Made by a program: the position numbers and the translations under genes. DNA of 64,000 nucleotides, from positions 1,914,052 to 1,978,051 of the forward strand of contig NZ_KB900536.1 in assembly GCF_000378965.1 (NCBI RefSeq), written 5' to 3'. Below are positions 5,855-62,455 of the stretch, one piece after another. Numbering within the stretch: position 1 is the stretch's first letter; each line of letters starts with the position of its first letter. The notes under the pieces are model-generated. The model was given only the letters and a program-made list of their open reading frames with translations, ran no database searches and had not been told where the DNA came from. The DNA comes from Thioalkalivibrio thiocyanodenitrificans ARhD 1 (GTDB taxonomy: Bacteria; Pseudomonadota; Gammaproteobacteria; Ectothiorhodospirales; Ectothiorhodospiraceae).

Positions 5855-5879
5855 CATCACCTCAACCCACGGAGCCGTC

Positions 5880-9166: not shown

Positions 9167-9172
9167 GGCGCA

Positions 9173-9200: not shown

Positions 9201-9238
9201 GAGAGCGGCGACTCTGATCGCCCCGGAGACCGACCTTC

Positions 9239-9718: not shown

Positions 9719-9772
9719 AGGGGGTATAATTCCCTTCAGGCTTCGCAACAGTACAGAGTGTAAACCCAAATC

Positions 9773-10006: not shown

Positions 10007-10009
10007 GCC

Positions 10010-24874: not shown

Positions 24875-25909
24875 ATGACTCCAGGCTCACAACCCATGTC
24901 CATCCCAACCAACCTGATCACCGGATTCCTCGGCGTCGGCAAGACAACCGCAATCCGGCACCTGCTGGCGGCCCGGCCGAAGGATGAACGCTGGGCGGTG
25001 CTGGTCAACGAGTTCGGCCAGGTCGGGGTGGATGACATGCTGCTGGACGCCGAGGGAGTGGCGATACGGCAGGTACCGGGCGGCTGCCTGTGCTGCGTAT
25101 CCAGCCAGGCATTCACGGTCGGTCTCAACCGGATCATCCGCGAACAGCGTCCGGACTGCATCCTCATCGAACCCAGCGGACTCGGGCACCCGGCAAGGAT
25201 CATCGACTTGCTGTCCGGTCCGTTCTATGACGGCGTGCTGGACCTGCGCGCCACCATCACACTCATGGATGCCCGCCACCTGGCATCGCCCCGCCACCGC
25301 GGCCACGACACCTGGACTGACCAGATCCGGCTCGCGGATGTACTGGTGGCCGCGAAGGCGGACCTCTACGGGGACGACGAACACGCTGCATTCCACGACT
25401 TCGCCCTGACGCTGTCGCCGCCCAAGGCACGGCTTGCCCTGGTGACGGCAGGCGCCCTGGATCCCGGCTGGCTGGCCCTGCCCAGGGATCCCGCAAGGCG
25501 GGCCCACTGTCTCGGTGCTCATCCACCGCCCGATGACCACGACCATGGGCACGGCGCATCCGGGCACGCTCCGGATCCGGACGCGTCCTGGCAGATGATG
25601 GAAACCCTGGGCGATGGCTACTGGGGCCTGAGCTGGCTGCCGGGTCCCGGGACCCGCTTCCATAGAGCTGCGCTGGAAACCTTGCTGACAGCGATGCCGT
25701 GGGATCGCATCAAGGGGGTATTGCCCACGGACGACGGCTGGCTGCGCATCAACCGGGTGGCCGGCGAGGGTGACCCGGAACACTGTGATCCACCGCCCTC
25801 GGCCCGGGGGCGTCTTGAGATCATCCATCACGAATCGCCGGACCGTGAAGCGCTGGACCGCCGGTTGCGCGACGCGTGTCTGCCGACCTCCCCGTGCCCG
25901 GAGCGCTGA
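24875..25909 (+). CDS. CobW/ZNG-type GTPase metallochaperone
   Basis: A 344-residue G3E GTPase. Walker A GFLGVGKTT, the metal-binding CxCC motif in GGCLCC, the switch/Walker B EPSGLGHPARI, and a His-rich loop DDHDHGHGASGH before the C-terminal CobW domain. The family inserts or delivers metals, often Zn under limitation. DUF1007 and NicO genes follow at once (3-base gap, then overlap), making a three-gene metal operon. Cobalt or nickel handling is the alternative. Confidence 0.88.
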   Translation: MTPGSQPMSIPTNLITGFLGVGKTTAIRHLLAARPKDERWAVLVNEFGQVGVDDMLLDAEGVAIRQVPGGCLCCVSSQAFTVGLNRIIREQRPDCILIEPSGLGHPARIIDLLSGPFYDGVLDLRATITLMDARHLASPRHRGHDTWTDQIRLADVLVAAKADLYGDDEHAAFHDFALTLSPPKARLALVTAGALDPGWLALPRDPARRAHCLGAHPPPDDHDHGHGASGHAPDPDASWQMMETLGDGYWGLSWLPGPGTRFHRAALETLLTAMPWDRIKGVLPTDDGWLRINRVAGEGDPEHCDPPPSARGRLEIIHHESPDREALDRRLRDACLPTSPCPER

Positions 25910-25912
25910 AAC

Positions 25913-26662
25913 GTGACGGACCGGAGTTTACGCAGCGAAGAACCCTGTGGTAACACAATCCCCCGCCCGGCCGGAGAATACCCCCTGAATCCATTCGTAT
26001 CCCCAATCCGTGCATCACGGCTCTGCGTGTACGCGCTCGTTGTTGCGCTCCTCTGCCTGACGGCGGCCCCGGCACAAGCGCATCCGCACGCCTGGATCGA
26101 CCTGAGGGTGAGCGTGATCTTCAACGACCAGGGTCAGGTGACGGCGCTGCGCCAGTCCTGGCTCATCGACCCGTTCTACAGTCTCGTGCTGATTGAAGAG
26201 ATGGCCGAGGAAGCCGAGGGTGACACCATGGAGGCGAAGATGGCGGACATCGGCCAGCGGATGATCACGAACCTGGGACCCTACGATTACTTTACCGAGA
26301 TCCATCACGGCGATGACCGTATCCGGGGCGCCACCGTTTCGGATCACGGTCTGGACCGCAATGGCGGTCGCCTGGAACTGCGTTTCACACTTAATCTCGA
26401 ATCCCCGCTGGACCCTGCAGCAGCCCCACTGAGCTACGCCGTCTTCGATCCCGGCTACTTCATCGAGATCCTCCATGACGAGGCGTCGGCGGTGGCCCTG
26501 GAGGGCGCCTCGGAGCGCTGCAGTCTGCGCATCGAGCAACCCCGCCCGGACCCGGCCCTGGTTGCCCGGGCGGCGGCCCTTGATGCCAATCAGACGGCGG
26601 AACCCGGCCTGGGCCGTCACTTCACGGAACGCGCGAAGGTGCAATGCGAGCCGTCCTCCTGA
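25913..26662 (+). CDS. DUF1007 family exported protein
   Basis: A 249-residue protein with an N-terminal hydrophobic segment (YALVVALLCLTAAPAQAH) and a periplasmic DUF1007 domain starting HPHAWIDLRVSVIFND, followed by SWLIDPFYSLVLIEE. His and acidic residues at the mature N-terminus suggest metal binding. Such proteins are usually coded next to NicO transporters and are thought to be their periplasmic partner. The GTG start has GGAG nine bases upstream and follows the GTPase stop by three bases; it overlaps the nicO start by 19 bases. Confidence 0.8.
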   Translation: MTDRSLRSEEPCGNTIPRPAGEYPLNPFVSPIRASRLCVYALVVALLCLTAAPAQAHPHAWIDLRVSVIFNDQGQVTALRQSWLIDPFYSLVLIEEMAEEAEGDTMEAKMADIGQRMITNLGPYDYFTEIHHGDDRIRGATVSDHGLDRNGGRLELRFTLNLESPLDPAAAPLSYAVFDPGYFIEILHDEASAVALEGASERCSLRIEQPRPDPALVARAAALDANQTAEPGLGRHFTERAKVQCEPSS

Positions 26663-27633
26663 TCCTGCTGCTGGCGCTTGCGCCCTGGGCGATCGGCTCC
26701 CCCCTGTCCGGGCCGCCGACCCAGGAGCGTACACCGACGCAAGTGCAGGACCCCGGCCTGTGGGAACGCGCCACGCACTGGGTCCTGGCCAAACAGCGCC
26801 AGCTCCACCGCCAGCTGGCCCGGGGCATGGAGACCGTCCAGGGGGCACCCACGCTCACCAACACCCTGGCGCTGGTGCTGATCGGCTTTCTCTATGGGGT
26901 ATTCCACGCGGCAGGCCCGGGGCACGGCAAGGTGGTGATCACCACCTATCTGCTCACCCACCGCCAGCACATGCGCCGCGGACTGATCCTGTCCTGGGCC
27001 TCGTCGCTGCTCCAGGGGTTCACCGCCATCGCGCTTGTTCTGGCCGTGGTCGTGGTGGCCGAGCGCATGGCCCGGGATGCACTGAGCCAGGTGCGCACCC
27101 TGGAGCAGGTCAGCTTCGCGCTGGTGGCGGCGGTGGGGGCATGGCTCGTCTTCCGCGCCCTGCGCGGGCTTTACCGTCTGCGGGGCGCGGGCGCCGAAGG
27201 TCATGGCCACGATCACCCGCATGATGGACACGCCTGCGGCACCTGCGGCCACGCCCATCACGTCACACCCGCCCAGGCTGCGCGCAGCGACAGCCTGGGC
27301 ACCATGCTCGGCACCGTGCTGGCGGTGGGCGTGCGGCCCTGCACGGGCGCCATCCTGGTACTGGCGGTGGCCAATATGCTGGGCCTGTGGATGGCCGGCA
27401 TCGCCGCCGTAATCGCCATGTCCGTAGGCACGGCCATCACCGTCTCGATACTCGCGGTTCTGGCGGTACAGGCCCGGCAATGGGCGGCCCGGGCCGCCGC
27501 CGGCGGAAACTCGGTCGGATGGCAACGGACCGGGCAGGTGGTCGCCCTGGCCGGCGGGGCGCTGATCTTCGCGCTGGGTGCCAGCCTCTTTGGCGCCGGG
27601 ATGGATGTCCCCGTCCACCCGCTGGGGCTGTGA
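26644..27633 (+). CDS. NicO family nickel/cobalt (metal) transporter
   Basis: A 329-residue inner-membrane protein with about six membrane segments after an N-terminal hydrophobic start. Family motifs: [16 protein letters not shown] in the first helices and [14 protein letters not shown] later. A His-rich cytosolic or periplasmic loop ([21 protein letters not shown]) separates the halves. NicO/RcnA-type proteins move Ni, Co or perhaps Zn, either inward or outward. Context with a CobW GTPase and DUF1007 suggests zinc or cobalt homeostasis; direction of transport cannot be read from sequence. Confidence 0.85.
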
Positions 27634-34460: not shown

Positions 34461-35819
34461 CTACGGCAACGTAACCACTGCCTCGAGCCCGCCTCCCTCG
34501 TGATTCCTGAGGGTCAGTTCGCCTCCGTGCGATCGGGCGATGTTACGTGCGATCGCGAGCCCGAGCCCGATCCCACCCGTCGTCCTGGAGCGTGACTCCT
34601 CTACACGATAGAAAGGATCGAATACACGCTCCAGGAGCGGCTCGGGAATACCCCCGCCTGGATCAGAGACCCGAATCACCAGTTGACCGACATTATGACT
34701 GACGTCGATCGTGGCCTCGCCGCCATATTTCACGGCGTTGTCAACCAGGTTCTCCACGCACCGCCTGAGGGCGCCAGGCCGCACGTGATGGACCTCTGCC
34801 CCACCGACCACGCGGACCCGCTGGCCAAGCTCTTCGCGATCGTGCTGGATGGATTCAAGCAAAGCCATGATGTCCACGGGCTGAACCGAATCCCCGACGC
34901 TGACACCACATGTAAACTCCAGCATGGCCGAGGCGAGCTGCTCGATCTGGTCGATATCTCGCCCGATCCTGCTGCGCAGTTCGGAGTCCTCAACCAGTTC
35001 GGCGCGCAGGCGCAGCTTCGTAATGGGTGTCCGGAGATCATGGGAGATGGCCCCCAGCAGAAACTCCCGATCCCGGATCATCCTGGCAAGATGGGCCTGC
35101 ATGCTGTTGAACGCGGATGCGGCATCCTGAACTTCCGGCGGACCCGTTTCAGGCAGCGCAGGGCGCTGGATATCCTTAGTGAGTTCGCCTGCGGCCTCGA
35201 GCAGCATCTGCAATGGTCGGGTAACCCGATGAACCGCGATCCACGACAACAATACCACCGGCACCAGAAGCACGATCAGTGTTAGTACCAGACGTCTGGG
35301 CACCGCGTAGATCTCGACACCCAGACGATGATCAAAACGAACCCATCGCCCGTCCATGAGTTCCACCCAGGCGCTGAAGCCCCGATCCAGCTCCTCTGGA
35401 AAAGCACCGTTGCCCCCGAGCGGCAGGGTGTCCCCTTGCACTCCATGCATGGTCACGACGATGTTTCGCGGCGCGCCCAACGCCCTTGCCAGAAGGGACC
35501 ACAGATGCCCTTCATGGTCCCGCGCGGAGTCTCGATTGCGCGCGGGAAGCGGCGTCGGCGGCCCGGTCGACGTGATCGAGACCGCCAGCGAGGGGCCGTT
35601 GATCGCATCGATCACCAGCTCCGATGCCTGCGGTGACAGTGCCTCCAGCGTGTGCACGATGGTGGAGATACGCTGCGCCGCGTAGAGCCCGCCGGCCTTG
35701 TACATGACTTCACCTCGATCGCGCAGCAGTATGATCCCGGCGGCAAGCTGCGTGACGAGCAGGCCGCTGACCAGTATGAGCACGAGCCGGCTGACGAGAT
35801 TGAGCTTCCGAAGACGCAC
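34461..35819 (-). CDS. Sensor histidine kinase (EnvZ-like)
   Basis: A 452-residue membrane histidine kinase. Membrane segments at about 11-32 and 176-196 enclose a periplasmic sensor of about 140 residues without a recognised fold. HAMP linker at about 197-248, then the H-box LGAISHDLRTPITKLR with His260, N-box ENLVDNAVKYG, and ATP lid motifs DPGGGIPE and GGIGLGLAIARNIA. It starts with GTG directly after the regulator's TGA (TGAGTG), so the pair is co-translated. Its signal is unknown; the divergent cytochrome/Spy genes suggest envelope metal or redox stress. Confidence 0.92.
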   Translation of the reverse strand: MRLRKLNLVSRLVLILVSGLLVTQLAAGIILLRDRGEVMYKAGGLYAAQRISTIVHTLEALSPQASELVIDAINGPSLAVSITSTGPPTPLPARNRDSARDHEGHLWSLLARALGAPRNIVVTMHGVQGDTLPLGGNGAFPEELDRGFSAWVELMDGRWVRFDHRLGVEIYAVPRRLVLTLIVLLVPVVLLSWIAVHRVTRPLQMLLEAAGELTKDIQRPALPETGPPEVQDAASAFNSMQAHLARMIRDREFLLGAISHDLRTPITKLRLRAELVEDSELRSRIGRDIDQIEQLASAMLEFTCGVSVGDSVQPVDIMALLESIQHDREELGQRVRVVGGAEVHHVRPGALRRCVENLVDNAVKYGGEATIDVSHNVGQLVIRVSDPGGGIPEPLLERVFDPFYRVEESRSRTTGGIGLGLAIARNIARSHGGELTLRNHEGGGLEAVVTLP

Positions 35820-36533
35820 TCAGGACGCCTCTTCGACCTTCGCGCAGAACACGTAACCCTCGTTGCGCACGGTCTTGATGAACCGGGGATCTCGACCCGT
35901 GTCGCCCAGACGACGGCGCAACCGGCTGATCAGCACATCGACTGAACGGTCATACGGGCCGGCCTCCCGGCCGTGCAGGAGATCCATCAACCGGTCTCTG
36001 CCCAACACCTGATTCGCGTGCTCAAGCAGTACACCGAGGAGTTTGTACTCCGCACCGGAGAGTGAAACGACGACGCCCTGCGGCGAGATCAGCCGGCGCT
36101 CCCTGACATCCATCACCCAACCGGAAAAACGCAACCGGCAATCCGTCGAGCCCGCCGGACCGGGCACCGGCCGGGTTCGACGGAATAGCGCCCGCACCCT
36201 GGCAAGCAGTTCCCGAGGGCTGAACGGCTTGACCAGATAGTCGTCGGCGCCCATCTCCAGGCCAACGACTCTGTCCACCTCCTGCGCGAGCGCGGTCAGC
36301 ATGATGATCGGCACGCTGGAGCGGGCGCGCAGTTCACGGCACATGGAAAGCCCGTCGGTCCCGGGAAGCATGATATCCAGGATGATCAGATCAATCGGCT
36401 CCGCCTCAAACCGGCTATAGGCGGCCTGGCAGTCGCTGACCGCAAGCGGATCGTAGCCGCTGCGCCGAAGGTAGTCCCGCAGCAACTCACAGATCTCCGG
36501 GTCATCGTCAACGATCAGGATCTTCTCGTGCAT
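35820..36533 (-). CDS. OmpR/PhoB-family response regulator
   Basis: A 237-residue regulator. The receiver has the acidic pocket VDDDPE, phospho-acceptor Asp53 (LIILDIMLPG), Thr80 and Lys102 (DYLVKPFSP). The C-terminal winged helix ends with the recognition region YDRSVDVLISRLRRRLGD and FIKTVRNEGYVF. It precedes the kinase gene and is divergent from the Sox-type cytochrome gene. A 10-bp-spaced direct repeat in the intergenic region (36633-36648) is a plausible binding site. Confidence 0.94.
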   Translation of the reverse strand: MHEKILIVDDDPEICELLRDYLRRSGYDPLAVSDCQAAYSRFEAEPIDLIILDIMLPGTDGLSMCRELRARSSVPIIMLTALAQEVDRVVGLEMGADDYLVKPFSPRELLARVRALFRRTRPVPGPAGSTDCRLRFSGWVMDVRERRLISPQGVVVSLSGAEYKLLGVLLEHANQVLGRDRLMDLLHGREAGPYDRSVDVLISRLRRRLGDTGRDPRFIKTVRNEGYVFCAKVEEAS

Positions 36534-36632
36534 AGGTGATGCCCCGCTATTGCAACGCTCCCCCGAAAACCGGTCGCCGGTCGTTGCCCGTATGCAATGC
36601 GCCCGGCCGGCGGTTCACATTCGGACATGTAT

Positions 36633-36648
36633 TGTTGCGAACTGTTAC
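36633..36648 (+). promoter_or_regulatory. Candidate OmpR-family regulator site (direct repeat TGTTRC, 10-bp period)
   Basis: TGTTGC at 36633 and TGTTAC at 36643 are direct repeats exactly one helical turn apart, the usual arrangement for OmpR/PhoB-type dimers bound head to tail. They lie in the 237-base gap between the response regulator and the cytochrome gene. Confidence 0.4.
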
Positions 36649-36770
36649 AAACAACCCGGCACCAGACACACTGAGATTACACGCATCAGCTTTACTGTTA
36701 TAGAGACGAACAGGAAGTTGGAAATGCACGCTGCACGAATCCAGATCGTCGATGGGGGGGGGAGGAGCCA

Positions 36771-38201
36771 ATGAAATACGGGAGAAATGGCTACAGGGCG
36801 GTGGGGACCACGGGAGTGAACAACCCGCATCTATCGGGAAGGCAATCCGTGTTGTTCGGATTTGCCGCGTCATGCCTTGCGCTTGGCCTGCTCTGCGGGC
36901 AGGCGGTGGCGCAGACAGTGCATCATGGAGGCCACACGCCCCCCAAACCGATGCACAGCGAGCATGCGGCGGACAGGGCACCCGGCCATGACCATGGTCA
37001 TGAAGATCCCCGTGGCGGGCACAAACGCCATGAGGGCGGCCATGGCGAAGGCGGGCACGGAGCGCATGGACAGCACGGGGGACACGGTATGATCGTACCC
37101 GAGTCAAGAGACTTTCCCACCATCGCCTATGACGAGGAGCGTGCCCCCCGGCCGCCCGAAAACGCGACACTGCCGGAGAACACCGGCAACGCCGCAGCCG
37201 GCAAAGCGCTCACCTACAACCCGGGCAAGGGCCGCTGCTTGGCCTGCCACATGCTGGGTCCGGATTCGGAGCAGCCCGGAGACCTGGGGCCGAACCTGAG
37301 CGACTATGGAAAGCGGGGATTCTCCCACGCGTACACCTACCAGCAGATCTGGGACGCCAGGGTTCACAATCAGGATTCCGCGATGCCGCCCTTCGGCACG
37401 AACGAACTGTTGTCCGCGGCGGAGATCATGGACATCGTCGCCTATCTCCACACCCTTACCACTCCGGTCGCCGTGCCGGGTCGACCGAAGGAGCCGCAAC
37501 GATCACGACGGGAGCGGGTGTTCGTGGCGGGTGAGGATCTCAGCGTAGCCGACGATTACGTCGATGCGGGCAGGGCGGCCTTCAGGCGCCCCGGCAACAA
37601 CGGACGCGCCTGCGCGTCCTGTCATGCCGCAGGCGAGGCCGGTGATGACATCAGCCGCGCCGCCGCTCGCTTTCCCCGCTTCGACGAGGCGAAGGACGCG
37701 GTCGTCACCCTGGAGGATCGCGTCAATATGTGCCGTGAAACACACATGGACAGCCCTGCGATCGAATACGGATCGCGCGCGATGAACGTATTGACAAGCT
37801 ACCTGAGGCATCTGTCTCGCGGCCAGAAGATCCAGGTCTCGGCGGAGGGGCCCGCTGCCGAAGCGTTCGAACGCGGCAGGTCCCTTTACTACCGACGAGC
37901 CGGGCAACTCAACTATTCATGTGCCGAGTGTCATGCGAAGCATTCGGGCAAGTGGCTGAGGGGGCAGTATCTGCGCCCTCTTGACGACGTCTCCGGTGAT
38001 TGGCCCAAACACTTCATTGCCGGGCATGATCTTGGCCTGATCAGCATGCAGCAGAGGATCCGACACTGCCAGATCGTGACACGCACGTATCCCCTTGAGT
38101 TGGGATCCAGGGAGTATGCGGAGTTGGAGTTCTATATGACGGTGCTGTCAGAAGGCACGCCGGTCCTTGCGCCGACCAGGTCCCGCCTGCGGGGGGAATA
38201 A
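36771..38201 (+). CDS. SoxX-SoxA fusion cytochrome c with His-rich N-terminal region
   Basis: A 476-residue exported tri-haem protein. Order: signal segment (about 27-48, VLFGFAASCLALGLLCGQAVA), a His-rich region (51-105, 15 His), a SoxX-like domain with haem site CLACH (156-160) and Met ligand in MPPFG (205), then a SoxA-like domain with CASCH (281-285), a conserved RVNMCRETHM (Cys321), QLNYSCAECHAKHSGKWLRG (haem CAECH 384-388) and Cys433 in RHCQ, which matches the cysteine that becomes a persulfide haem ligand in SoxA. SoxXA normally is two proteins that join thiosulfate to SoxYZ. GGGGGGAGGAG precedes the ATG. No soxYZ or soxB is nearby. Confidence 0.88.
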   Translation: MKYGRNGYRAVGTTGVNNPHLSGRQSVLFGFAASCLALGLLCGQAVAQTVHHGGHTPPKPMHSEHAADRAPGHDHGHEDPRGGHKRHEGGHGEGGHGAHGQHGGHGMIVPESRDFPTIAYDEERAPRPPENATLPENTGNAAAGKALTYNPGKGRCLACHMLGPDSEQPGDLGPNLSDYGKRGFSHAYTYQQIWDARVHNQDSAMPPFGTNELLSAAEIMDIVAYLHTLTTPVAVPGRPKEPQRSRRERVFVAGEDLSVADDYVDAGRAAFRRPGNNGRACASCHAAGEAGDDISRAAARFPRFDEAKDAVVTLEDRVNMCRETHMDSPAIEYGSRAMNVLTSYLRHLSRGQKIQVSAEGPAAEAFERGRSLYYRRAGQLNYSCAECHAKHSGKWLRGQYLRPLDDVSGDWPKHFIAGHDLGLISMQQRIRHCQIVTRTYPLELGSREYAELEFYMTVLSEGTPVLAPTRSRLRGE

Positions 38202-38369: not shown

Positions 38370-38921
38370 ATGCATCGCCTCACCGCGATCCTGCTGGCAC
38401 TCAGCCTGACCCAGGGAGGTCTTTCCGCCGCCGATAACCAGAGTCCCTACGTCGAATACACTGAGCGCCCCATCAAGGCGCTGTCTGCCGAAGAGATCGA
38501 TGGGCTGCGTGCAGGCCGGGGCATGGGTTTCGCCTTGGCCGCAGAACTCAACGGCTATCCAGGTCCCCTTCACGCCCTGGAGGTGGCCGATGCCATTCAT
38601 CTTTCCGAATCCCAGCGCGAACGGACGCAGACCCTGTACAGGGAGATGCTTGATGAAAGCCGCAACCTTGGTGAACGTATCGTGGTTCTCGAAGCGGAAC
38701 TGGATTCTGCCTTCGCCACACGTACGCTCACCGATGAGCGCCTTCGCGAACTGACGGCCCGCATTGCCGAACTCAACGGCCGAGTGCGCTACACGCACCT
38801 GCGCCACCACTTGGAGATGACTGCTCTTCTCAATCCGCATCAGATTGAGCTCTATAACCAGGTGCGGGGTTACGGGACCCGAGATGGCCACGCCCGCGAC
38901 CACCACCACGGAGATCATTGA
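38370..38921 (+). CDS. Spy/CpxP-like periplasmic protein with His-rich tail
   Basis: A 183-residue exported, mainly helical protein. Signal peptide (LTAILLALSLTQGGLSA), then LSAEEIDGLRAGRGMGFALAAELNGYPGPLH (family-like, quoted in parts), the helix EVADAIHLSESQRERTQTLY resembling the LTxxQ motif of Spy/CpxP and of metal sensors such as CnrR, long helices, and a C-terminal DGHARDHHHGDH. Spy-type proteins are chaperones or metal sensors in the periplasm. GGAGAAG precedes the ATG. It lies 168 bases after the His-rich cytochrome gene on the same strand; both have His clusters. Confidence 0.75.
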   Translation: MHRLTAILLALSLTQGGLSAADNQSPYVEYTERPIKALSAEEIDGLRAGRGMGFALAAELNGYPGPLHALEVADAIHLSESQRERTQTLYREMLDESRNLGERIVVLEAELDSAFATRTLTDERLRELTARIAELNGRVRYTHLRHHLEMTALLNPHQIELYNQVRGYGTRDGHARDHHHGDH

Positions 38922-49397: not shown

Positions 49398-51886
<2,489 letters not shown>

Positions 51887-51890
<4 letters not shown>

Positions 51891-52708
51891 CCTTCCCGTA
51901 CGGAGGTAATGCCGCGCTGCTCATGCACATTCCCTTCGCGCTCCACCCGCAGGCGCACTTCCCAGGCGCCGGGCATGGCCAGGGCCACCGGCGCCTGGTA
52001 GATGCCCGGCCCCGCCGCCTCAAACCATACCGTGCGGTCCTGGCGCTCATCGGAGGGACGTGCGAACCGGCCCTCCACGCGGGCCCCGCTGAGCGGATTG
52101 CCCTGCCCGTCCAGCACCTTGACCTGGAAGACGGTCTCCCTGCCGAGCCTCGGCGTGCCGATCCAGCCCTGGCGCACCTCCCAGCCGCGCGCTTCCTGTT
52201 CGGCCAGGCGCGCAAGATGCTCGTTGAACAGAGGCTCCTTCTTGAAGTAATCGTTGGCCACGGTGCCCGGGAAATGGGACGTGACATGCTCGGCGCCGCT
52301 GCGCGGTTCGGGCAGGATACGGCCCACCAGGCCGCTGGGCATGCCGTGATTGGCCAGGGAGATGATGGTGGCATCCACCGTGGCGATCACCAGGAAGAAG
52401 GCCACGATGGTGGCCGGCGCCCAGTGGATCCAGCCTCCGCCCCGGCGCCCAGCACCCCGGCTCGCCTCCCACTGGGCCGTGACGATGGCCATGCCGTACG
52501 GGGTGATGACGAACAATGCGAGGTGGATGGCGAACACGTCCACCCCCTGCCAGAACACGATCTGCAGGGGCAGAAAGACGCACAGCATGCCCACGATCAC
52601 CACCAGGGAGACCTGGTAGCCGCGCAACCGGGTGAAACGGTAGATCAGCGCGAAGGCGAGGAATGAAAGCGCCACACCGCCGCCCAGGGTAAGAACCAGA
52701 TTGTCCAC
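51887..52708 (-). CDS. ccoH: FixH/CcoH-like protein with extra N-terminal membrane domain
   Basis: A 273-residue protein. The C-terminal half matches FixH: one membrane helix ([19 protein letters not shown]), a [21 protein letters not shown] segment (quoted in part) and an Ig-like beta domain ([20 protein letters not shown]). Usual FixH proteins are about 150-170 residues; here about 85 extra residues carry three more membrane helices at about 5-22, 33-52 and 57-76. FixH helps in cbb3 assembly. It lies between ccoG and ccoI, as expected. Confidence 0.82.
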
Positions 52709-52760
52709 TGCAAAGACCTCCTTGCGGGAGTATTAGTTTAGCGCCTCACGCCCGGCCGGA

Positions 52761-54167
52761 TCACGGGGTGTGGAAATGCCCCGGAAGTTCCAGCGGGGTG
52801 ATCTCCTGTCCATCCGCCGGCACGATGCGAAAGACCAGATCATGGGGCCCCCGTATGTCGGGATCGACCCGGTAGCGCACCCGCGCCAGCAGGGTGATGC
52901 CGTGCTCCGGCTGCAGACGCACCAGGTCCACGCGGCCCAGGTCCAGGGTCATGCCCTCGGGACCGTCCAGTTCCACGCGCAGTTCCATCAGATCCTGGGT
53001 CTTGTTGTTGACCTTGATCTCGTAGCTGTTCTGAATGGAGCCATCGGAGAGCTGCACGTAGAGCGGCTGGCGCACCTGAGCAACCGTGGCGTCCAGGGGC
53101 GCCTGAGTGGCGATGCTCCACGCCAGCAGGCCGGCCATGACCAGCAGAACCGCCGCGTAGCCAAGGGTCTTGGCCTTTAAGAAGTGCGTGCGCGAACCCT
53201 CCAGTGCGTTCTGGGAGGTATAGCGGATCAGCCCCCGCGGCCAGCCCATGCGATCCATGATGGCGTCGCAGGCATCCACGCACAGGGCGCAGTGTATGCA
53301 CTGATACTGCAGACCATCGCGGATATCGATGCCTGTGGGGCAGACCTGCACGCAGTAGCCGCAATCGATGCAGTCGCCCACGCCGGCGCGCTGGCGCGCC
53401 TCCCGTGTCTTGAGTTCCCCGGCGGGCCTGGCCCGGCCCGTCGGCCCTTCGCCGCGCTGCTCGTCGTAGGAGACGATCAGCGTATCCCGGTCGAACATCA
53501 CCGCCTGAAAGCGGGCGTAGGGGCACATGTAGGTGCACACCTGCTCCCGGGCGAGCCCGGCCATCACATAGGTGGTGGCGGTCAGGAACAGCGCCGTGGC
53601 ATAGGCCGGAAACGGGGCCTGACCGGTGAAGAACCGGCCGATCAGCTCGGGCGCGTCCGCCCAGTACAGGGTGAACGTCAGTCCGGTGGCAAAGGCCGTG
53701 AGCAGCCAGAGGGCATGGGTCAGGCCTTTCTTCACGAACTTCTCTGCCCCCCACGGCTGCTTGTCCAGACGGATGCGCGCCGGGCGCTCCCCCTGGAGCA
53801 GGTGCTCGACGAACATGTACACATCGGTCCACAGGGTCTGGAAACAGAAATAGCCGCAGAACACGCGGCCGGCCACACCGGTCACCAGAAACAGCAGCAC
53901 CGCCGCGATCATCAGCAGGCCCGCCAGCCAGAAGATGTCCTGGGGATGGACGACAAGGTCGAAGAGGTAGAACCGGCGCCCGGGTATATCGAACATCACC
54001 GCCTGGGACGGTCCATGCTCCCGCGCCCAGCGCAGCCAGGGAAGCGCGAAGTACACTCCGTAGGCGAGCGCCAGGATGCCCCACTTCAGGGTGCGAAAGC
54101 GCCCCTTCACCGACCTGGGGTAGATCGGGATCCGGGCCTGGAAATCCTGGTGACGGGTATCGGTCAT
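52761..54167 (-). CDS. ccoG: cbb3 oxidase accessory protein CcoG (Fe-S membrane protein)
   Basis: A 468-residue membrane ferredoxin-like protein, reported to act as a cupric reductase in cbb3 assembly. Membrane helices flank CGYFCFQTLWTDVYMFVE and CTYMCPYARFQ; two [4Fe-4S] motifs are CIDCGYCVQVCPTGID and CIHCALCVDACD. The C-terminal periplasmic Ig-like domain (YEIKVNNKTQDLMELRVEL) is complete. The ATG at 54167 is preferred; an upstream ATG adds ten residues. Confidence 0.95.
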   Translation of the reverse strand: MTDTRHQDFQARIPIYPRSVKGRFRTLKWGILALAYGVYFALPWLRWAREHGPSQAVMFDIPGRRFYLFDLVVHPQDIFWLAGLLMIAAVLLFLVTGVAGRVFCGYFCFQTLWTDVYMFVEHLLQGERPARIRLDKQPWGAEKFVKKGLTHALWLLTAFATGLTFTLYWADAPELIGRFFTGQAPFPAYATALFLTATTYVMAGLAREQVCTYMCPYARFQAVMFDRDTLIVSYDEQRGEGPTGRARPAGELKTREARQRAGVGDCIDCGYCVQVCPTGIDIRDGLQYQCIHCALCVDACDAIMDRMGWPRGLIRYTSQNALEGSRTHFLKAKTLGYAAVLLVMAGLLAWSIATQAPLDATVAQVRQPLYVQLSDGSIQNSYEIKVNNKTQDLMELRVELDGPEGMTLDLGRVDLVRLQPEHGITLLARVRYRVDPDIRGPHDLVFRIVPADGQEITPLELPGHFHTP

Positions 54168-54249
54168 GGGATTGCCGCAGGGCGGCCGTGGCCGCATGGA
54201 GGCCGGCGCCGGATGCGGCAGGCACCGGGTACATCGGCGTCAGCGTTGC

Positions 54250-55176
54250 CTATTGGCCGCCGCCAAGCTGGTGCACGTAGGCGGTGAGCACCTTGATCTC
54301 GGTGGGCGAGAGGCGATCACCGAAGGCCGGCATCTCGCGCTGTACGCCGTTGCGCACCACGCTCTGCACCAGAGCCAGTCGGGCTTCATAGCCTTCGGCG
54401 CCGGCCACGTCAACGATCTGCCAGATGTTGTTGGTCAGGTTGGGCGCGCCCTGGGAGGTGCGGCCCGTGCCGCCCGCATCGTGGCACTGGAAGCAACCCC
54501 CCTCGCTGCCGTTGAAGATCGCATCACCGCGCCGGATCTCGTCATCGTCACCGCCGCTGTAGCCGGCGATGTCGAGCACGTAGGCGGACACGGCGCGCAG
54601 TTGCGCGTCATCGAAGGTCTCACGAAACGGCGGCATGTAGCCCATGCGCCCGTGGACGAGTGTCTGTTCGATACGGTCCACGGTGCCGCCCCACAGCCAG
54701 TCGTCGTCAGCCAGGTTCGGGTAGCGGCCGACGATGCCGGCACCGCCCACCTGGTGGCAGGCGGCACAATAGTCGCCGAATATACCGTGGGCATAAGAAC
54801 GCACAAAGGAGATCCTGTCCGGGTCGCCCAGGATGTCGTCGTAGCTGGCTTCGGCGATCACATCCAGGAATTCACGCTGGCGCAGCGCCGCCGGGCTCGA
54901 CTGCATGTCGCGCACCAGCAGGGCCCGGGTGTTCCAGTGAGTGGTGCGTTCCTCGCCATCCACCTCGTAGGTGACGGTGGCAAAGCCCCTGGTATAGGTG
55001 TCACCGATCGGCCAAGCGGGATACAGGAACCAGTACACCACCGAGAAGACCACCGTGGCATAGAAACCCCACAGCCACCACCGGGGCAGAGGATTGTTGT
55101 ACTCCTGAAGGTCGCCGTCCCACGCATGACCCGTGGTCTGGACCGCATCCTGTCTCTTCTCGCTCGGCTTGCTCAT
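54250..55176 (-). CDS. ccoP: cbb3-type cytochrome c oxidase subunit III (CcoP)
   Basis: A 308-residue di-haem subunit. One or two N-terminal membrane helices (WLWGFYATVVFSVVYWFLYPAW) after EYNNPLPRWW, the CcoP signature, then haem sites CAACHQ and CFQCHDAGG. It takes electrons from soluble cytochrome c and passes them to CcoO. It overlaps ccoQ by four bases. Confidence 0.96.
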   Translation of the reverse strand: MSKPSEKRQDAVQTTGHAWDGDLQEYNNPLPRWWLWGFYATVVFSVVYWFLYPAWPIGDTYTRGFATVTYEVDGEERTTHWNTRALLVRDMQSSPAALRQREFLDVIAEASYDDILGDPDRISFVRSYAHGIFGDYCAACHQVGGAGIVGRYPNLADDDWLWGGTVDRIEQTLVHGRMGYMPPFRETFDDAQLRAVSAYVLDIAGYSGGDDDEIRRGDAIFNGSEGGCFQCHDAGGTGRTSQGAPNLTNNIWQIVDVAGAEGYEARLALVQSVVRNGVQREMPAFGDRLSPTEIKVLTAYVHQLGGGQ

Positions 55177-55376
55177 GACCTGTTCTCGTCTTCGCGATTG
55201 GGCTGTTCGTCCTCATCGTCCTGGAACGGGATGTACCGGTAGGATTCCAGGCGCTCCGAGCGTTTCCTGCCCGTAAATACGTACACAAGGATTCCGACGA
55301 AGGTGGTGGAGAACAGCAGCAGCGCGACGATCTTGCTGTTGCTCATGTCGGCGATCCAGTACCACAAATCAAGCAC
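55173..55376 (-). CDS. ccoQ: cbb3-type oxidase subunit IV (CcoQ)
   Basis: A 67-residue subunit with one membrane helix (IVALLLFSTTFVGILVYVFTG) and the RSERLESYRYIPFQDDE tail typical of CcoQ. It stabilises the complex. It lies between ccoO and ccoP as usual, 50 bases after ccoO. Confidence 0.93.
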   Translation of the reverse strand: MLDLWYWIADMSNSKIVALLLFSTTFVGILVYVFTGRKRSERLESYRYIPFQDDEDEQPNREDENRS

Positions 55377-55426
55377 GTCTTGACCTCTCGGCCGATCCGG
55401 CCCGGCGCGCTGGCCGGAGCAGCGGA

Positions 55427-56161
55427 TCAGCGAAACTCGACGAAGTAGCCCTCGTCATACTGCGTGAAATCCACCATGGTGCCCAGCACCTGCAGATAGG
55501 CGACGAGCGCATCCATCTCGGTGATCCGGGAAGGATCGCCGTCGAAATTGCCTGCCTGCGCCTGGGCCACCAGGTTCTCCTCGGCGCGATTGATGTCGAG
55601 CCAGCGGGCGACCTCTTCGCCGAAGCGCTCCACATTGGCCTCGTACTCCTCGTCCGTGAGGGAATACGGCACGCCCACCCGCCGCAACGCCCGTAGGCGT
55701 GCCTCGATGTCCGCGTAGCGGAGGTCGTTCTCCGCCAGCCACGGATAGCCGGGCATGATGGACTCGGGCACCACGGACTGCGGGCTGATCAGGTGCTGCA
55801 CCTGCCACTCGTTGGAGTACTTGCCGCCCACCCGGGCCAGGTCCGGACCGGTGCGCTTGGATCCCCATTGGAACGGATGATCGTATTGTGACTCCGCAGC
55901 CAACGAGTAATGCCCGTAACGGAGCATCTCGTCGCGGAAGGGGCGGATCATCTGCGAATGGCAGGCATAGCAACCCTCGCGGATGTAGATGTCACGGCCG
56001 CGCTGTTCCAGCGGCTTGTACGGACGCACGCCGTCCACCTCCTCCACCGTATCGTTGATGTAGAAGAGCGGCACGATCTCCACCAGCCCGCCGATGCTGA
56101 TCACGGCCAGCGTGAGGATGATCAGCAACCCGGCATTGGTTTCAATGGTTTCATGCTTCAT
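55427..56161 (-). CDS. ccoO: cbb3-type cytochrome c oxidase subunit II (CcoO)
   Basis: A 244-residue mono-haem cytochrome c subunit anchored by an N-terminal helix ([22 protein letters not shown]). Signatures: [20 protein letters not shown], haem motif [12 protein letters not shown], and [14 protein letters not shown] with the Met ligand region. It starts 26 bases after ccoN. Confidence 0.97.
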
Positions 56162-56187
56162 GGTCTGAAATCTCCGTCAACGCCGGC

Positions 56188-57678
56188 TCAGGAAGAGGTG
56201 CCGGCCATCTTGGCGGCAATCTTCGCTTCCACCCGGGCGGCCTCGCGGCGGGCGGCGGTGATGGTCATAAAGATGTTGTAGGACATGATCAGAATGCCCA
56301 CGAGGAACAACCCGCCGCCGAGGGCGCGCACCACGTAGGGCCGATGCAGGAAGACCACGGACTCGATGAACGTGTAGGCGAGGTTGCCGTACTCGTCGAA
56401 GGCCCGCAGCATCAGGCCCTGGCCGATGCCAGCCACCCACATGGCGGTGATGTAGAGCACGATGCCGATGGTGGCCAGGAAGAAGTGCACGTACACCAGC
56501 CGGACGCTGTAGAGCCTGGCGTTCCAGAGCCGCGGAATCAGATGGTACAGAGAACCGAAGGTGATCATGGCCACCCAGCCGAGCGCCCCGGAATGCACGT
56601 GGCCCACCGTCCAGTCCGTGTAGTGGGACAGCGCATTGACGCTTTTCAGGGACATCATCGGCCCCTCGAAGGTGGACATTCCATAGAACGAAAGCGCTGT
56701 GATCAGAAACAGCATGATCGGGTCCGTGCGCAGTTTGTCCCACGCACCGGAGAGCGTCATGATGCCGTTGATCATGCCGCCCCATGAGGGCAGCAGAAGC
56801 AGGATGGAGAAGGCCGCCGCGAGCGTGGACACCCAGTCGGGCAACGCCGTCCAGTGCAGGTGATGGGCACCCACCCACATGTACAGGAAGACCAGCGCCC
56901 AGAAGTGGACGATAGACAGTCGGTAGGAATAGATAGGCCGCCCCGCCTGCTTGGGGACGAAGTAATACATCATGCCCAGGAAGGCGGCGGTGAGGAAAAA
57001 GCCCACCGCATTATGCCCGTACCACCACTGGGTCATGGCGTCCTGCACACCCGAGAACAGGGAATAGGACTCCAGGCTGAACAGGCGCACGGGCACCTGC
57101 AGGTTATTGAAAATATGCAGGATTGCCGTCGCCAGGATGAACGACATGTAAAACCAGTTGGCCACGTAGATGTGCGGCTGGGAACGGCGCAGCAGGGTCT
57201 GCAGGAAGACCCAGAAATAGGCCACCCAGGTCACGGTGATCAGGATATCGATGGGCCACACGAACTCGGCGTATTCGCGGCCCTGGGTGTAGCCCATCAT
57301 GTAGGTGATCACACCGAGGGCGATGGACAGGTTCCAGCCCCAGAAGGTGAAGGTGGCCAGGGAATCGCCGTAGAGCCGGGTCTGGCAGGTGCGCTGCACG
57401 ACGTAATACGAGGTGGCAAACAGGGCGTTGCCGCCGAAGCCGAAGATCACCAGGGTCGTGTGCACCGGACGGAAGCGTCCGAAGGTGATCTGCGGGATGT
57501 CGAAGTTCAGGAACGGGAATGCCAGCTGCGAGGCGATATAGGTCCCCACACCCATGCCCACCACGCCCCAGACCAGGGCCATGATGGCGAATTTCTTGAC
57601 GATTTCGTAGTTGTACTGCTCCGAGGGAACAGCGGCCGCCCCGGCGTGGGACGACGCGTTGGTCGCGGCTTGGGCCAT
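56188..57678 (-). CDS. ccoN: cbb3-type cytochrome c oxidase subunit I (CcoN)
   Basis: A 496-residue catalytic subunit with 12 membrane helices, holding low-spin haem b and the haem b3-CuB centre where O2 is reduced. Seen: [19 protein letters not shown] with the haem ligand His, the [20 protein letters not shown] region (shown in part: [18 protein letters not shown]), [15 protein letters not shown] with two CuB-type His, and [14 protein letters not shown]. It leads the minus-strand operon ccoN-O-Q-P-G-H-I-S. No FNR-type box was found in the 190 bases upstream. Confidence 0.97.
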
Positions 57679-57868
57679 GTCTCTAACCTACCCCTGAACT
57701 TAGGTGGATGCTCACCGGGCTGGAATTCAGCGCGTGAAGCATACAGGAAACGCCCCGGGGGTCAAATCGAATCCGGAGCGTTTCGCTAAGGATAGCAGGG
57801 GTCCGATGGGGCCACGGTACGACGCGCCGCATAAGGCCTGCTGGTGCGCGCCGCGGCCCGCTCCATGG

Positions 57869-58792
57869 CTACGACATGGCAGGCACCCAGAAGTTCAGGT
57901 AACGGTCCGCCAGCAGGGCCCCGAACAGGGCAAGCAGGTAGACGATGGAGAACAGGAAGGTGCGCATGGCCCGCTGGCGGCTGCGGGTCACGAGCAGCAG
58001 GGTGGCATGGTAGAGAAACATCCCGCCCAGGACCAGCGCCGAGACCATGTACACCCAGCCGCTCATGCCCATGCCCACCGGCAGCAGGGTCACCAGCACC
58101 AGCAGGATCGTGTACAGCAGGATCTGCAGGCGGGTGAAATCCTCACCGTGCGTGACCGGCAGCATGGGGATGCCCGCCCGGGCGTAGTCGTCCTTGCGAT
58201 AGATGGCCAGGGCCCAGAAATGCGGCGGCGTCCAGGTGAAGATGATCAGGAACAGCACCATGGCGATGGGGTCGACCTGACCCGTGACCGCCGTCCACCC
58301 GAGCAGGGGCGGCGTGGCGCCTGCGGCGCCGCCGATCACGATGTTCTGCGGCGTGGCGCGCTTCAGGTACATGGTGTACACCACCGCATAACCCAGCAGG
58401 GAGAACAGGGTGAGCACGGCAGTCAGGGTATTGACACCCAGCAGCAGAACGAGGAAACCCAGCGTTCCGATCACGGCGGAGAATACGAGGCCGTGTTCGA
58501 CATCCAGGTGTCCCGTGGGCAGCGGGCGACGGCGCGTGCGGCTCATGCGCGCGTCCACGTGGCGATCCACCACATGGTTGACCGCCGCCGCGGAGCCCGC
58601 CATCAGGGCAATACCCAGGGTACCGAACACCAGCGCCTGCCAGGGGACCTGCCCCGGGGCCGCCAGCAGCATGCCCACCCATGCGGTGAAGACCATGAGC
58701 GCCACCACCTTGGGCTTGCACAGGGTCAGGTAGTCGCGCCAGCGGCTCAGCAAACCCTGATGCAGACTCAGGGTCAGTGCCTTGATGGTCAT
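57869..58792 (-). CDS. cyoE: Protohaem IX farnesyltransferase (haem O synthase)
   Basis: A 307-residue polytopic UbiA-family prenyltransferase making haem O for the aa3 oxidase. YLTLCKPKVVALMVFTAWVG, the Asp-rich AAAVNHVVDRHVDARMSRT and IIFTWTPPHFWALAIYRKDDYARAGIPMLPV (shown in part: TWTPPHFWALAIYRKDDY) are diagnostic. The start at 58792 has GGGAGGGG upstream. It lies directly after ctaA, the next enzyme of haem A synthesis. Confidence 0.96.
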   Translation of the reverse strand: MTIKALTLSLHQGLLSRWRDYLTLCKPKVVALMVFTAWVGMLLAAPGQVPWQALVFGTLGIALMAGSAAAVNHVVDRHVDARMSRTRRRPLPTGHLDVEHGLVFSAVIGTLGFLVLLLGVNTLTAVLTLFSLLGYAVVYTMYLKRATPQNIVIGGAAGATPPLLGWTAVTGQVDPIAMVLFLIIFTWTPPHFWALAIYRKDDYARAGIPMLPVTHGEDFTRLQILLYTILLVLVTLLPVGMGMSGWVYMVSALVLGGMFLYHATLLLVTRSRQRAMRTFLFSIVYLLALFGALLADRYLNFWVPAMS

Positions 58793-58853
58793 GCGATGCC
58801 CCTCCCGATGAATGTGATCATTGTATGGTGAATCATACCTGTCTCCATGCAAC

Positions 58854-59936
58854 TCATCCCGCCTGCTGCGTCGTGGCGGTCGTGCCCATGCGGACGGGCG
58901 CGCGGCCGCTCTCGCGGACCGGCTGGCGCAACATGTACAGCAGGGTCACCAGGGAGAGCAGCAGCAGGGCCGCACCGCCATTGTGGGCCACGGCCACGGG
59001 CAGCGGCAGGTAGAAGACGATATTGGAAATGCCCAGACCGACCTGGACCAGCAGCAGCACCATCACCGATGCCGCCACGCCGCGCACCGCGCCCTGGCCA
59101 CGCCACAGGAGCAGCAGCGCCAACGCGCCCACCGCCAGAAGCGTGACCACCGCGCCGAGTCGGTGCGTCAGGTGAATCGCCGTCCGCGCGGCCGGGTCCA
59201 GCACACCGAACTCGTAATCCACGCCGACGCCCCGCCACAGGACGAAGCCGTCGCGGAAATCCGTCTCGGGCCACCATTGCTGCTGGCACTGGGGGAAATC
59301 CGGACAGGCCAGGGCCGCATAGTTCGCGCTGGTCCAGCCGCCCAGCGCAATCTGGACCACCAGTACCGCCGTCGCCAGTCCCGCCCAGGGCAGAATGCCG
59401 CGGTGCAGGGCCGGCACCGGGCCGGACTGGTGGCGCACCGGCGGCGTGCTGCGGTCACGTGTGGCGAGCACCAGGAGCCAGAGCATCACCAGAGTGGCGA
59501 ATCCGCCCAGCAGGTGCGCCATGACGATGATGGGCTTGAGTTGCAGCGTCACCGTCCACATGCCCAGGGCTGACTGAAAAATGATCAAACCCAGCAGCGC
59601 CAAGGGGAGAGCCACGGGCTGGCCCGGGTCGCGCCGGCCGCGCCAGGCCAGCACCGCCAGCATCAGGACCACCAGCCCCAGGGTGCCGGCCGCATAGCGA
59701 TGCACCATTTCCTTCCAGGCCTTGCCGACTTCCACGGGCCGATCCGGGAAGGCCTGGTTGGCCAGCTCGACGGTGGCGGACTGGGTGGGGGCCAGCATGC
59801 GGCCATAGCAGCCGGGCCAGTCGGGGCAGCCGAGACCGGCGTCGGACAGGCGCACATAGGCACCAAGAATGATCACGGTCAGGGTGAGGACGACCGCCGC
59901 GCGCACACCGACGAAAAAGAGGGCCCTGGCGTTCAT
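58854..59936 (-). CDS. ctaA: Haem A synthase CtaA/COX15
   Basis: A 360-residue membrane enzyme oxidising haem O to haem A. Eight membrane helices in two halves. Family marks: GAYVRLSDAGLGCPDWPGCYG, EMVHRYAAGTLG and a second-half HLTHRLGAVVTLLA, giving the four His haem ligands with MAHLLGGF and VAHNGGA. The Cys pair CPDFPQC is also present in the second half. It starts one codon after the SCO-like gene's stop. Confidence 0.95.
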   Translation of the reverse strand: MNARALFFVGVRAAVVLTLTVIILGAYVRLSDAGLGCPDWPGCYGRMLAPTQSATVELANQAFPDRPVEVGKAWKEMVHRYAAGTLGLVVLMLAVLAWRGRRDPGQPVALPLALLGLIIFQSALGMWTVTLQLKPIIVMAHLLGGFATLVMLWLLVLATRDRSTPPVRHQSGPVPALHRGILPWAGLATAVLVVQIALGGWTSANYAALACPDFPQCQQQWWPETDFRDGFVLWRGVGVDYEFGVLDPAARTAIHLTHRLGAVVTLLAVGALALLLLWRGQGAVRGVAASVMVLLLVQVGLGISNIVFYLPLPVAVAHNGGAALLLLSLVTLLYMLRQPVRESGRAPVRMGTTATTQQAG

Positions 59937-59937
59937 G

Positions 59938-60558
59938 TCATCCGATGCGCGAGTTCTTGAGCAGTTTCTTCATGTCGATGAACATGCCACGGGACGTGGA
60001 CTCGGTGCTGTAACGCAGGACCAGGTTCCCGTGGGGGTCCACCAGATAGACATGGTCCTCCGCGTCGGCGCCCAGCAGCTGCAGCAGGGGCAACAGTGCG
60101 GACCGGTCTCCCGTGCCGAACTTCAACCCCGGATGTTCCTCGCGCAGGGGCAGGACCTCCCCCGCCGCTTCCGCCTCGGTCAGCAGGTAAAGCCGCTGGA
60201 CGCGATCGATGTCATTGCCCAGGGCAAGGCGCGCCTGGCGCGTCTTGAACAGCGCTGCCTGGCAATAGAGGTCGCAGTGGCCGTCACCCACGTACATGAG
60301 CGTCCAGCGATGGCGCAGGTGTTCAACGGTCAGGCGATCCCCTTCGGCTGTCACCAGGGAAAGGGTCTCGATGGGCCGGGGCGGATCCATCAGTTCGCCG
60401 TGGTTGGTGAAGCGCGTGGGCGTCCACACGTCCGGGTTGTGATAGACCCAGTTGGCGAGCAACAGGGGCAGCGCAAACACCATCACCACGGCTACCAGGG
60501 TCAGCCGCCCGATCAGGCGGCGCCTCGGTGCGGCGGTCATGGATACATCACTTGTCAT
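59938..60558 (-). CDS. SCO/thioredoxin-like protein of the aa3 cluster
   Basis: A 206-residue membrane-anchored protein. One N-terminal helix (LTLVAVVMVFALPLLLANWVY), then a thioredoxin-like domain with RWTLMYVGDGHCDLYCQAAL. Cys95 and Cys99 form the CxxxC copper-binding/redox pair known from SCO proteins. The later segment VYLVDPHGNLVLRY has a His after Asp-Pro that may be the third ligand. It replaces the longer SCO1/SenC in position between SURF1 and CtaA and probably helps deliver copper to the CuA site (inference). Confidence 0.75.
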   Translation of the reverse strand: MTSDVSMTAAPRRRLIGRLTLVAVVMVFALPLLLANWVYHNPDVWTPTRFTNHGELMDPPRPIETLSLVTAEGDRLTVEHLRHRWTLMYVGDGHCDLYCQAALFKTRQARLALGNDIDRVQRLYLLTEAEAAGEVLPLREEHPGLKFGTGDRSALLPLLQLLGADAEDHVYLVDPHGNLVLRYSTESTSRGMFIDMKKLLKNSRIG

Positions 60559-61300
60559 CAGTCTTCGATCTCCTGCGAATTACGAGTACAGCCGCGATGA
60601 CCACCAGGGCGAGCGCCATTGCATACCATTGCACCGCGTAGGCCATGTGGCGCTCCGCGCCCATGGGGAGCACCGGACGCCAGTCCCGATGGTAGCCATG
60701 CGGCGCGTCCGGGTCGAGGCGGATGGTCATGGGGACCACGGGGCCCCCGAGGCGCTGGCCCATGGCCTCGAAATCCAGGTACTGCACCACCCGGGGCCAG
60801 ACCGCCCGCCCGTCATCCATGGCGCCGATACGGTATCCCTCGCCGAACGGGACATAGACCTGCCCCCGTATCACACCCTGCCCGGCAGGCAGTCCGCCGG
60901 CGACATCAGGCAACTGTCCGGGCTGAGCCTCGCGCGGCACCCATCCCCGCTCCACCAGCACCAGCCGGCCGCTGGCGTCGTGCACGGCGGGTGTGATGAC
61001 CCGGTAACCCACACGGCCGTCCCTGATCTGATTGTCCAGCAGAAACTGCCGCTCCGGGAGGTACCGGCCCCGGAACGCCACCCGCTGAAAACGCAGGTCC
61101 TCCCAGGACCTGACGGACAGATCGAGCGGCCGGTGATCGGCCTCCGCGCCCTGCTCGAAGGCCTCCAGAATGGCCTGTTTTTCCCCGGCGCGCTGCCATT
61201 GCCAGTTGCCCAGGGAGACAAACAGCACCAGCAGGATCAGGCCGACCACAAGCGGGAGCCACGTGTAGATGAACGAACGCAATGCGGCCGGGCGCTTCAT
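60548..61300 (-). CDS. SURF1 family cytochrome oxidase biogenesis protein
   Basis: A 250-residue SURF1 protein with two membrane helices at the ends (LPLVVGLILLVLFVSLGNWQ and YAMALALVVIAAVLVI) and a periplasmic domain between. Signatures: LGNWQWQRAGEKQAIL, FRGRYLPERQFLLDNQ, GYRVITPAV, LVERGWVP, and HMAYAVQWYAMA. SURF1 supplies haem A to subunit I. It overlaps the SCO-like gene by 11 bases. Confidence 0.94.
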   Translation of the reverse strand: MKRPAALRSFIYTWLPLVVGLILLVLFVSLGNWQWQRAGEKQAILEAFEQGAEADHRPLDLSVRSWEDLRFQRVAFRGRYLPERQFLLDNQIRDGRVGYRVITPAVHDASGRLVLVERGWVPREAQPGQLPDVAGGLPAGQGVIRGQVYVPFGEGYRIGAMDDGRAVWPRVVQYLDFEAMGQRLGGPVVPMTIRLDPDAPHGYHRDWRPVLPMGAERHMAYAVQWYAMALALVVIAAVLVIRRRSKTDDK

Positions 61301-61363
61301 TGAAAAGGCGCGGGCATACCGGGCTATACTGCCCACTCTATACGCCCGTTTTCAGGAAGCACC

Positions 61364-61573
61364 ATGTTCGCCAAAGCCTTCGTCATAGTCCTGCTGATCG
61401 CCATCCTGGGCAGCCTCGGGTCCGCCCTGTTCTACCTGATGAAAGACACCAACGACGAACGTCGCACCGTCAAGGCCCTCACCTGGCGCATCGGACTGTC
61501 GATCGCCTGTTTCCTGCTCCTCATGGCCGGGGCCGCCACCGGGCTGATCCAGCCCCATGGCATCTACGGCTGA
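61364..61573 (+). CDS. DUF2909 family twin-transmembrane protein
   Basis: A 69-residue membrane protein on the opposite strand to the oxidase genes around it. Two helices (AFVIVLLIAILGSLGSALFYL and IGLSIACFLLLMAGAATGL) flank a charged loop MKDTNDERRTVKALTWRI. It fits DUF2909, often found in cox clusters of gammaproteobacteria and perhaps linked to oxidase assembly. Function not established. Confidence 0.85.
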   Translation: MFAKAFVIVLLIAILGSLGSALFYLMKDTNDERRTVKALTWRIGLSIACFLLLMAGAATGLIQPHGIYG

Positions 61574-61587
61574 CCCGCGGCCGACTG

Positions 61588-62454: not shown

Positions 62455-62455
62455 G

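Follow-up and report, generated by a model that had tools for sequence, protein, structure and literature searches.

A one-chain form of SoxXA has been described in Halorhodospira, in which SoxX is fused to the N-terminus of SoxA to give a triheme protein (PMC8877833), and within the accessible portions of the open-licence literature on fused SoxXA or His-rich SoxX this is, as far as we found, the only account in which such a fusion is stated. Repeated soxXA genes have been reported in Thioalkalivibrio, and the words "fusion" and "fused" are absent from the main text of that report as available (PMC6382920). The Cys-ligated haem of the related enzyme TsdA forms a cysteine S-thiosulfonate, which has been proposed as a model for SoxA (PMC4423706). 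The accessible part of the same source treats the role of copper in SoxAX as disputed, with EPR of the Starkeya novella protein speaking for it and, on the other side, structures that contain neither copper nor a plausible site for it (PMC4423706).

The window analysed here is a stretch of 64,000 nucleotides from Thioalkalivibrio thiocyanodenitrificans ARhD 1. At positions 36771..38201 (+) it contains a single uninterrupted frame, running from ATG to TAA, that encodes a one-chain SoxX-SoxA cytochrome of 476 aa with three CxxCH haem sites, as judged from its translation, profile searches, solved structures and relatives. A GGAGG-type ribosome binding site lies immediately 5′ of the ATG, the coding score of the gene is positive and its GC content (61–65%, compared with 61–71% across the 18 kb profiled) does not set it apart. 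An earlier sequence-only reading had proposed a fused SoxX-SoxA protein with an excellent ribosome binding site and no stop or frameshift between its domains, and on each of these points the present analysis agrees with it.

The chain begins with a probable signal peptide (residues 1–48; 36771..36914, +), recognized by eye from a basic start, a hydrophobic stretch and the end AVAQ/TV; the signal peptide of the sequence-only reading is thus retained as probable only, since these features were judged by eye. It is followed by a His-rich arm (residues 51–105; 36921..37085, +), for which the 15 His residues counted previously proved exact. The SoxX domain (residues 153–229; 37227..37457, +) contains the C156LACH160 haem motif and Met205, scores 89.7 bits against the SoxX equivalog profile TIGR04485 (cut-off 61) and matches the SoxX chain 3oa8_B at E 3e-12, with Met205 aligned to the Met of that protein. 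The SoxA domain (residues 261–469; 37551..38177, +) contains the other two CxxCH motifs (C281-H285 and C384-H388) together with Cys321 and Cys433, and scores 175.3 bits against the SoxA equivalog profile TIGR04484 (cut-off 110). The SoxA of 1h31 is the top solved-structure match of the whole protein (E 8.1e-32); we take 1h31 to be the SoxAX of Rhodovulum sulfidophilum and 2c1d that of Paracoccus pantotrophus. In the 1h31 alignment Cys433 (codon 38067..38069, +) falls on the active-site, haem-ligand Cys of SoxA, as the sequence-only reading had placed it, and this column is Cys in all 52 SoxA domains compared. A structure predicted from six aligned fusions reached a mean pLDDT of 48.6 and a pTM of 0.44 and was set aside.

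The fusion protein also matches PF21342, a Pfam domain common to SoxA and TsdA, in two stretches, and a TsdBA-like, tetrathionate-forming thiosulfate dehydrogenase with its cytochrome fused in front would account for this, for matches to TsdA structures at E ~2e-5 and for the missing SoxA Arg described below. Against such an enzyme, the match to 1h31 SoxA is far stronger (8.1e-32 vs ~2e-5), the SoxA equivalog score is 175.3 bits, no TsdA-named model is among the five NCBIfam families matched at 0.01, and the front domain is SoxX by its equivalog model, so that we consider this identity highly improbable. The protein is best regarded as SoxXA-like rather than as a proven SoxXA, since it passes both the SoxX and the SoxA profile yet does not have an Arg that is nearly constant in SoxA.

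The same His-armed fusion was found in two further genomes, a Sulfuriflexus MAG (L061) and an uncultured Gammaproteobacteria MAG (L060). Each encodes it in a single frame, 45–46% identical to the window protein, with the three CxxCH motifs, Met205, Cys321 and Cys433 identical and Arg429 also kept. Two genes joined through an error of sequencing or assembly, or a gene in decay, might be suspected from the occurrence of the fusion in just one of five genus genomes, but the fusion is not such an artefact, as its architecture recurs within single frames of two other genomes; with the haem and ligand residues kept and the coding score positive, we count this explanation as refuted, and what likelihood is left to it is negligible. 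Of the two outcomes that would have overturned the sequence-only reading, neither was found, as the equivalog models and solved structures assign the halves to SoxX and SoxA rather than to unrelated class I cytochromes, and the fusion in two other genomes rules out a joined-gene error.

Fusions of this kind are rare among the genomes sampled. A whole-protein search of 369 genomes of the class (E 1e-34) gave matches in 13, and in seven of these, own genome included, one frame spanned both halves, the other six having SoxA alone. Five genomes were matched in a sample of 398 from the phylum (E 1e-35), the own genome being the sole spanning case. One genome was matched among 47 of the own order (the own genome; E 1e-38), one among four of the order of G374 (E 1e-38) and one, with a spanning match, among 385 of the class of G413 (E 1e-37). 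Within the genus a spanning match was seen in the own genome only (1/5), one of the other four being 82% complete. The samples (genus, order, class and phylum) overlap in part, and distant fusions may escape thresholds this strict. Six loci (L060–L065) were obtained by scanning named genome contigs; besides the two His-armed relatives they come from Alphaproteobacteria MAGs (L062 and L065), a Thioploca MAG (L063) and a Thiotrichaceae MAG (L064), and the two parts of L065, SoxX and SoxA, lie in different frames. An earlier genome-contig scan with the single protein as query found no relative, and a scan of viral contigs for the fusion protein likewise found none. Sixteen plasmid records were matched, each over less than 80% of the query. 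The strongest plasmid match, on NZ_CP030127.1 of Indioceanicola profundi (426960–428015), extends in one piece over residues 121–468 at 34% identity with no annotated gene beneath it, and may represent one more fusion of SoxX to SoxA.

The tree of 52 SoxA domains groups the window protein with L060 and L061 in a single clade (support 100/99). The fused state requires four changes on this tree if L065 is treated as separate and three if it is not counted; L065 was left unlabelled in the three-change count because of its split frames. A single clade of all ten fusions, and with it one origin for all of them, was rejected (p-AU 4e-9), whereas a clade restricted to the window group plus L053, L057, L062, L063 and L064 was not (p 0.36), the set tested being one in which Halorhodospira sequences were not knowingly included. 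The SoxX tree (48 rows), which is short and weaker, groups the same three proteins (89/82) and gives six changes with L065 separate. Since one clade for all ten fusions is rejected, these phylogenies indicate that the fused state has changed more than once.

The His-rich arm is particular to the three-member clade. When His residues were counted from residue 26 to the SoxX haem motif in 47 SoxX-bearing proteins, the leaders of L061, the window protein and L060 had 11 (13.1%), 15 (11.5%) and 8 (9.5%), respectively, the arms of L060 and L061 being shorter than that of the window protein. The remaining 44 leaders, three of them cut 5′ by a locus edge and so incompletely seen, had at most 4.5% His (maximum 1/22, in L053). 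An arm is thus found in 3/47 SoxX-bearing proteins and in 3/3 members of the clade.

A second feature common to the three proteins lies in the SoxA catalytic domain, where the near-constant Arg noted above is replaced by Phe415 (codon 38013..38015, +). The column is Arg in 45 of the 52 SoxA domains and in the 1h31 and 2c1d alignments, Phe in the window protein, L060 and L061, Leu in L046, His in L073 and L019, and Ser in L018. The Arg four residues before the active-site Cys is present as Arg429 and is Arg in 47 of the 52 domains. In the available text of one study, Arg232 of R. sulfidophilum SoxA is called invariant and well placed for thiosulfate binding, and no Cys number that would anchor Arg232 is given there (PMC4423706). 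Column 415 probably corresponds to this residue in precursor numbering: its Arg, shared with 2c1d, is residue 206 of chain 1h31_A by alignment count, 26 below 232. That offset agrees with a 26-residue signal peptide, the length that we presume for R. sulfidophilum SoxA. A second conserved Arg, equivalent to Arg397, is further off and is kept in the window protein; if it were the equivalent of Arg232, the residue lost at 415 would be a different Arg. The presence of Phe instead of the usual Arg points to an altered substrate pocket, and because Phe415 occurs in all three proteins where 45 of 52 have Arg, the same function as canonical SoxAX is not assured.

Other departures from the usual SoxA pattern were observed in the same alignment. 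His occupies the position of the haem ligand Cys321 in the clade of L053, L057 and L062–L065 (6/52 domains), the active-site Cys being kept. Dihaem SoxA-like proteins from a genus mate (L073:9723-11364) and a family relative (L019:1222-2053) have both Arg positions replaced (by His and Gln). In L073 a soxX-like gene appears by eye to lie behind the SoxA-like gene, with regulator and kinase genes in front.

The genome that carries the fusion has further sox genes elsewhere: one SoxB (824.5 bits), two SoxY above the cut-off and one below, a soxY-soxZ-soxB cluster with neither soxA nor soxX seen adjoining, and a second, soxY-soxZ cluster. L058 has separate soxX-soxA genes and L059 a set in the order A-X-A-X, so that the fusion is one of several SoxXA-type proteins. 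The L058 locus (5669-11643) also contains two weak cytochrome c′-like genes beside soxX-soxA, below the cut-off and one of them HHHH-tailed, with a PccH cytochrome and a histidine kinase nearby. The second soxYZ (L071:9241-10098) equals L070:7990-8919 in SoxZ score and almost equals it in SoxY score, and by eye it has no soxB beside it and adjoins a large regulator and kinase. Near the His-armed fusions themselves, in the window, L052/L061 and L060, no other sox gene was recognized by eye among the genes called.

What adjoins the fusion gene in the window is a two-component system. An OmpR-type response regulator (35820..36533, −; Pfam Response_reg and Trans_reg_C) is transcribed divergently from it and is followed by an EnvZ/CpxA-like sensor histidine kinase (34461..35819, −; Pfam HAMP, HisKA and HATPase_c). 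Repeat and promoter scans of the divergent intergenic sequence (36534..36770) gave no direct repeat, no sigma-70-type site and no regulator site. Downstream of the fusion (38370..38921, +) is a gene for a secreted protein of 183 aa with a His-rich tail that resembles Spy/Metal_resist proteins, and as its scores against PF13801 (Metal_resist; 4.3e-06, 27.3 bits, cut-off 29.2) and LTXXQ (15.2 bits, cut-off 24.3) both lie below the cut-offs, it is named only Spy-like. Further off in the window, features read by eye include a trio about 9 kb from the fusion (24875-27633) of a CobW-type GTPase, a small secreted protein and a NicO-type transporter, resembling nickel/zinc loci, and a region (49398-63999) with a cbb3-type oxidase set, a copper-ATPase-like protein and more haem-copper oxidase or assembly genes.

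A search with the N-terminal 190 residues of the kinase gave nothing in 57 relatives (1e-6) and, at 1e-8, matches in 21 of the 369 class genomes, among them the own genome. Thirteen of the 20 other homologous-kinase loci were examined, L099 and L103 among them being contigs shorter than 5 kb. Divergent from the regulator or kinase, an LTXXQ protein above its Pfam cut-off is encoded at four of them (L104, L111, L112 and L113), and a small Met/His-rich protein with no Pfam match above cut-off stands in the same place at three (L105, L107 and L109), adjoined by a multicopper oxidase in L105 and L109. The other six (L099, L102, L103, L106, L108 and L110) list neither neighbour, and these counts stand without a control set of unrelated two-component systems. 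SoxXA was not among the listed neighbouring genes at any of the 13 loci. By association with the Spy-like, Met/His-rich and multicopper-oxidase neighbours of its kinase relatives, an envelope or metal-stress signal is plausible for the two-component system of the window.

The fusion, the two-component system and the Spy-like gene occur together in one genome only, and L060 and L061 have no such neighbours. In L060 a cytochrome c′-like gene with one CxxCH (25.5 bits, cut-off 26.5) ends six bases before the fusion start, and in L061 the neighbours are helicase-like and chemotaxis-receptor genes. We considered whether the Spy-like gene accompanies the fusion from genome to genome and rejected this, as the Spy-like gene matches in 16 of the 58 relatives, one of them the own genome, and the other 15 gave no spanning match to the fusion; in five other genomes its relatives have no sox neighbour, from contexts read by eye.

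These neighbours could be taken further, to a stress enzyme outside Sox whose SoxA site acts on persulfide, polysulfide, tetrathionate or a metal-bound thiol. The seven of 13 kinase loci with Spy-like or Met/His-rich genes, some with a multicopper oxidase, would suit such an enzyme, as would the downstream Spy-like gene, the His arm and the lost Arg; the regulator link being confined to a single genome, the Spy-like protein scoring below its Pfam cut-offs and the SoxA equivalog score being strong, we hold it to be improbable.

We consider an accessory cytochrome of the SoxXA type, controlled by envelope or metal stress, the likeliest identity of the window protein. In full, our preferred reading, to which we give a probability of roughly 0.5, is that of a periplasmic, one-chain triheme protein of the SoxXA type that serves as an accessory, stress-induced isozyme with a metal-binding His arm and a changed substrate pocket. 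A Sox-type role is favoured by both equivalog scores, by the alignments to solved SoxA and SoxX, by the soxYZ and soxB genes elsewhere in the genome and by Cys433, Arg429, Cys321 and Met205 in all three His-armed fusions; Phe415, the lack of adjoining sox genes and the restriction of the two-component and Spy-like link to a single genome count against the preferred reading. By analogy with SoxAX, the Cys433 haem of SoxA would take electrons from a thiosulfate-type sulfane, which the SoxA site would probably join to SoxYZ meanwhile; the tethered SoxX haem would receive these electrons from the SoxA haems and hand them to a soluble cytochrome. More tentatively, the adjacent two-component system, responding to envelope or metal stress, might switch on both the fusion and the Spy-like protein, and the His arm might bind Cu, Zn or Ni, acting as a metal buffer or as a shield of the thiol-ligated site.

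A simpler account is that of a plain extra SoxXA that serves SoxYZ and thiosulfate exactly as SoxAX does, its His arm being no more than a neutral leader of low complexity and its neighbours standing there by chance. It would agree with domain scores above the cut-offs, with neighbours that are not conserved in L060 and L061, with the position of fused genes before soxYZB in L062 and L063, and with the fused form in thiosulfate-using Halorhodospira, as far as the available text describes it (PMC8877833). Yet the His arm persists in all three proteins despite only 45–46% identity to the window protein, Phe415 is likewise in all three, and no soxYZB was seen beside any of them, and we regard this account as somewhat unlikely. 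A bolder reading, which we offer as doubtful, is that the three proteins represent a stress-induced single-chain SoxXA branch, with a His metal arm and a Phe-for-Arg site and encoded off the sox operon, that would handle another sulfane or serve as a metal-tolerant replacement of SoxAX. A His-armed SoxXA is a natural object for asking what effect bound metal has on SoxA catalysis. Its one-chain form fixes the SoxX:SoxA stoichiometry, an advantage for work on the haems and on electron transfer, and the need for the usual SoxA Arg can be probed directly at Phe415.

Compared with the SoxAX of 1h31 and 2c1d, the window protein aligns over the whole SoxA domain, with equivalents of Cys433 and Arg429, and has the SoxX haem motif in common; it differs in that those proteins consist of separate SoxA and SoxX chains and have Arg in place of Phe415, and the aligned parts exclude the His arm. 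The fused SoxXA proteins of L062 and L063 likewise have the order SoxX-SoxA, three CxxCH motifs and the active-site Cys, but are only 27–31% identical to the window protein, have no His arm, and carry Arg where the window protein has Phe415 and His where it has Cys321. In L063 the fusion is directly followed by soxY-soxZ-soxB, all three above cut-off, and in L062 by a SoxY-like frame (by eye), soxZ and soxB; since both fusions stand directly before soxYZB genes, fused chains do occur as Sox components. The proteins of L060 and L061 have the architecture, the His-rich arm and the Phe at 415 in common with the window protein, whereas their neighbours differ. The Halorhodospira SoxXA likewise places SoxX ahead of a dihaem SoxA in one chain, and its description, by which rather than by sequence it is compared here, makes no mention of a His arm in the available text (PMC8877833). 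The fusion of SoxX to SoxA as such is therefore already published, and the window protein is a rare, His-armed variant of it.
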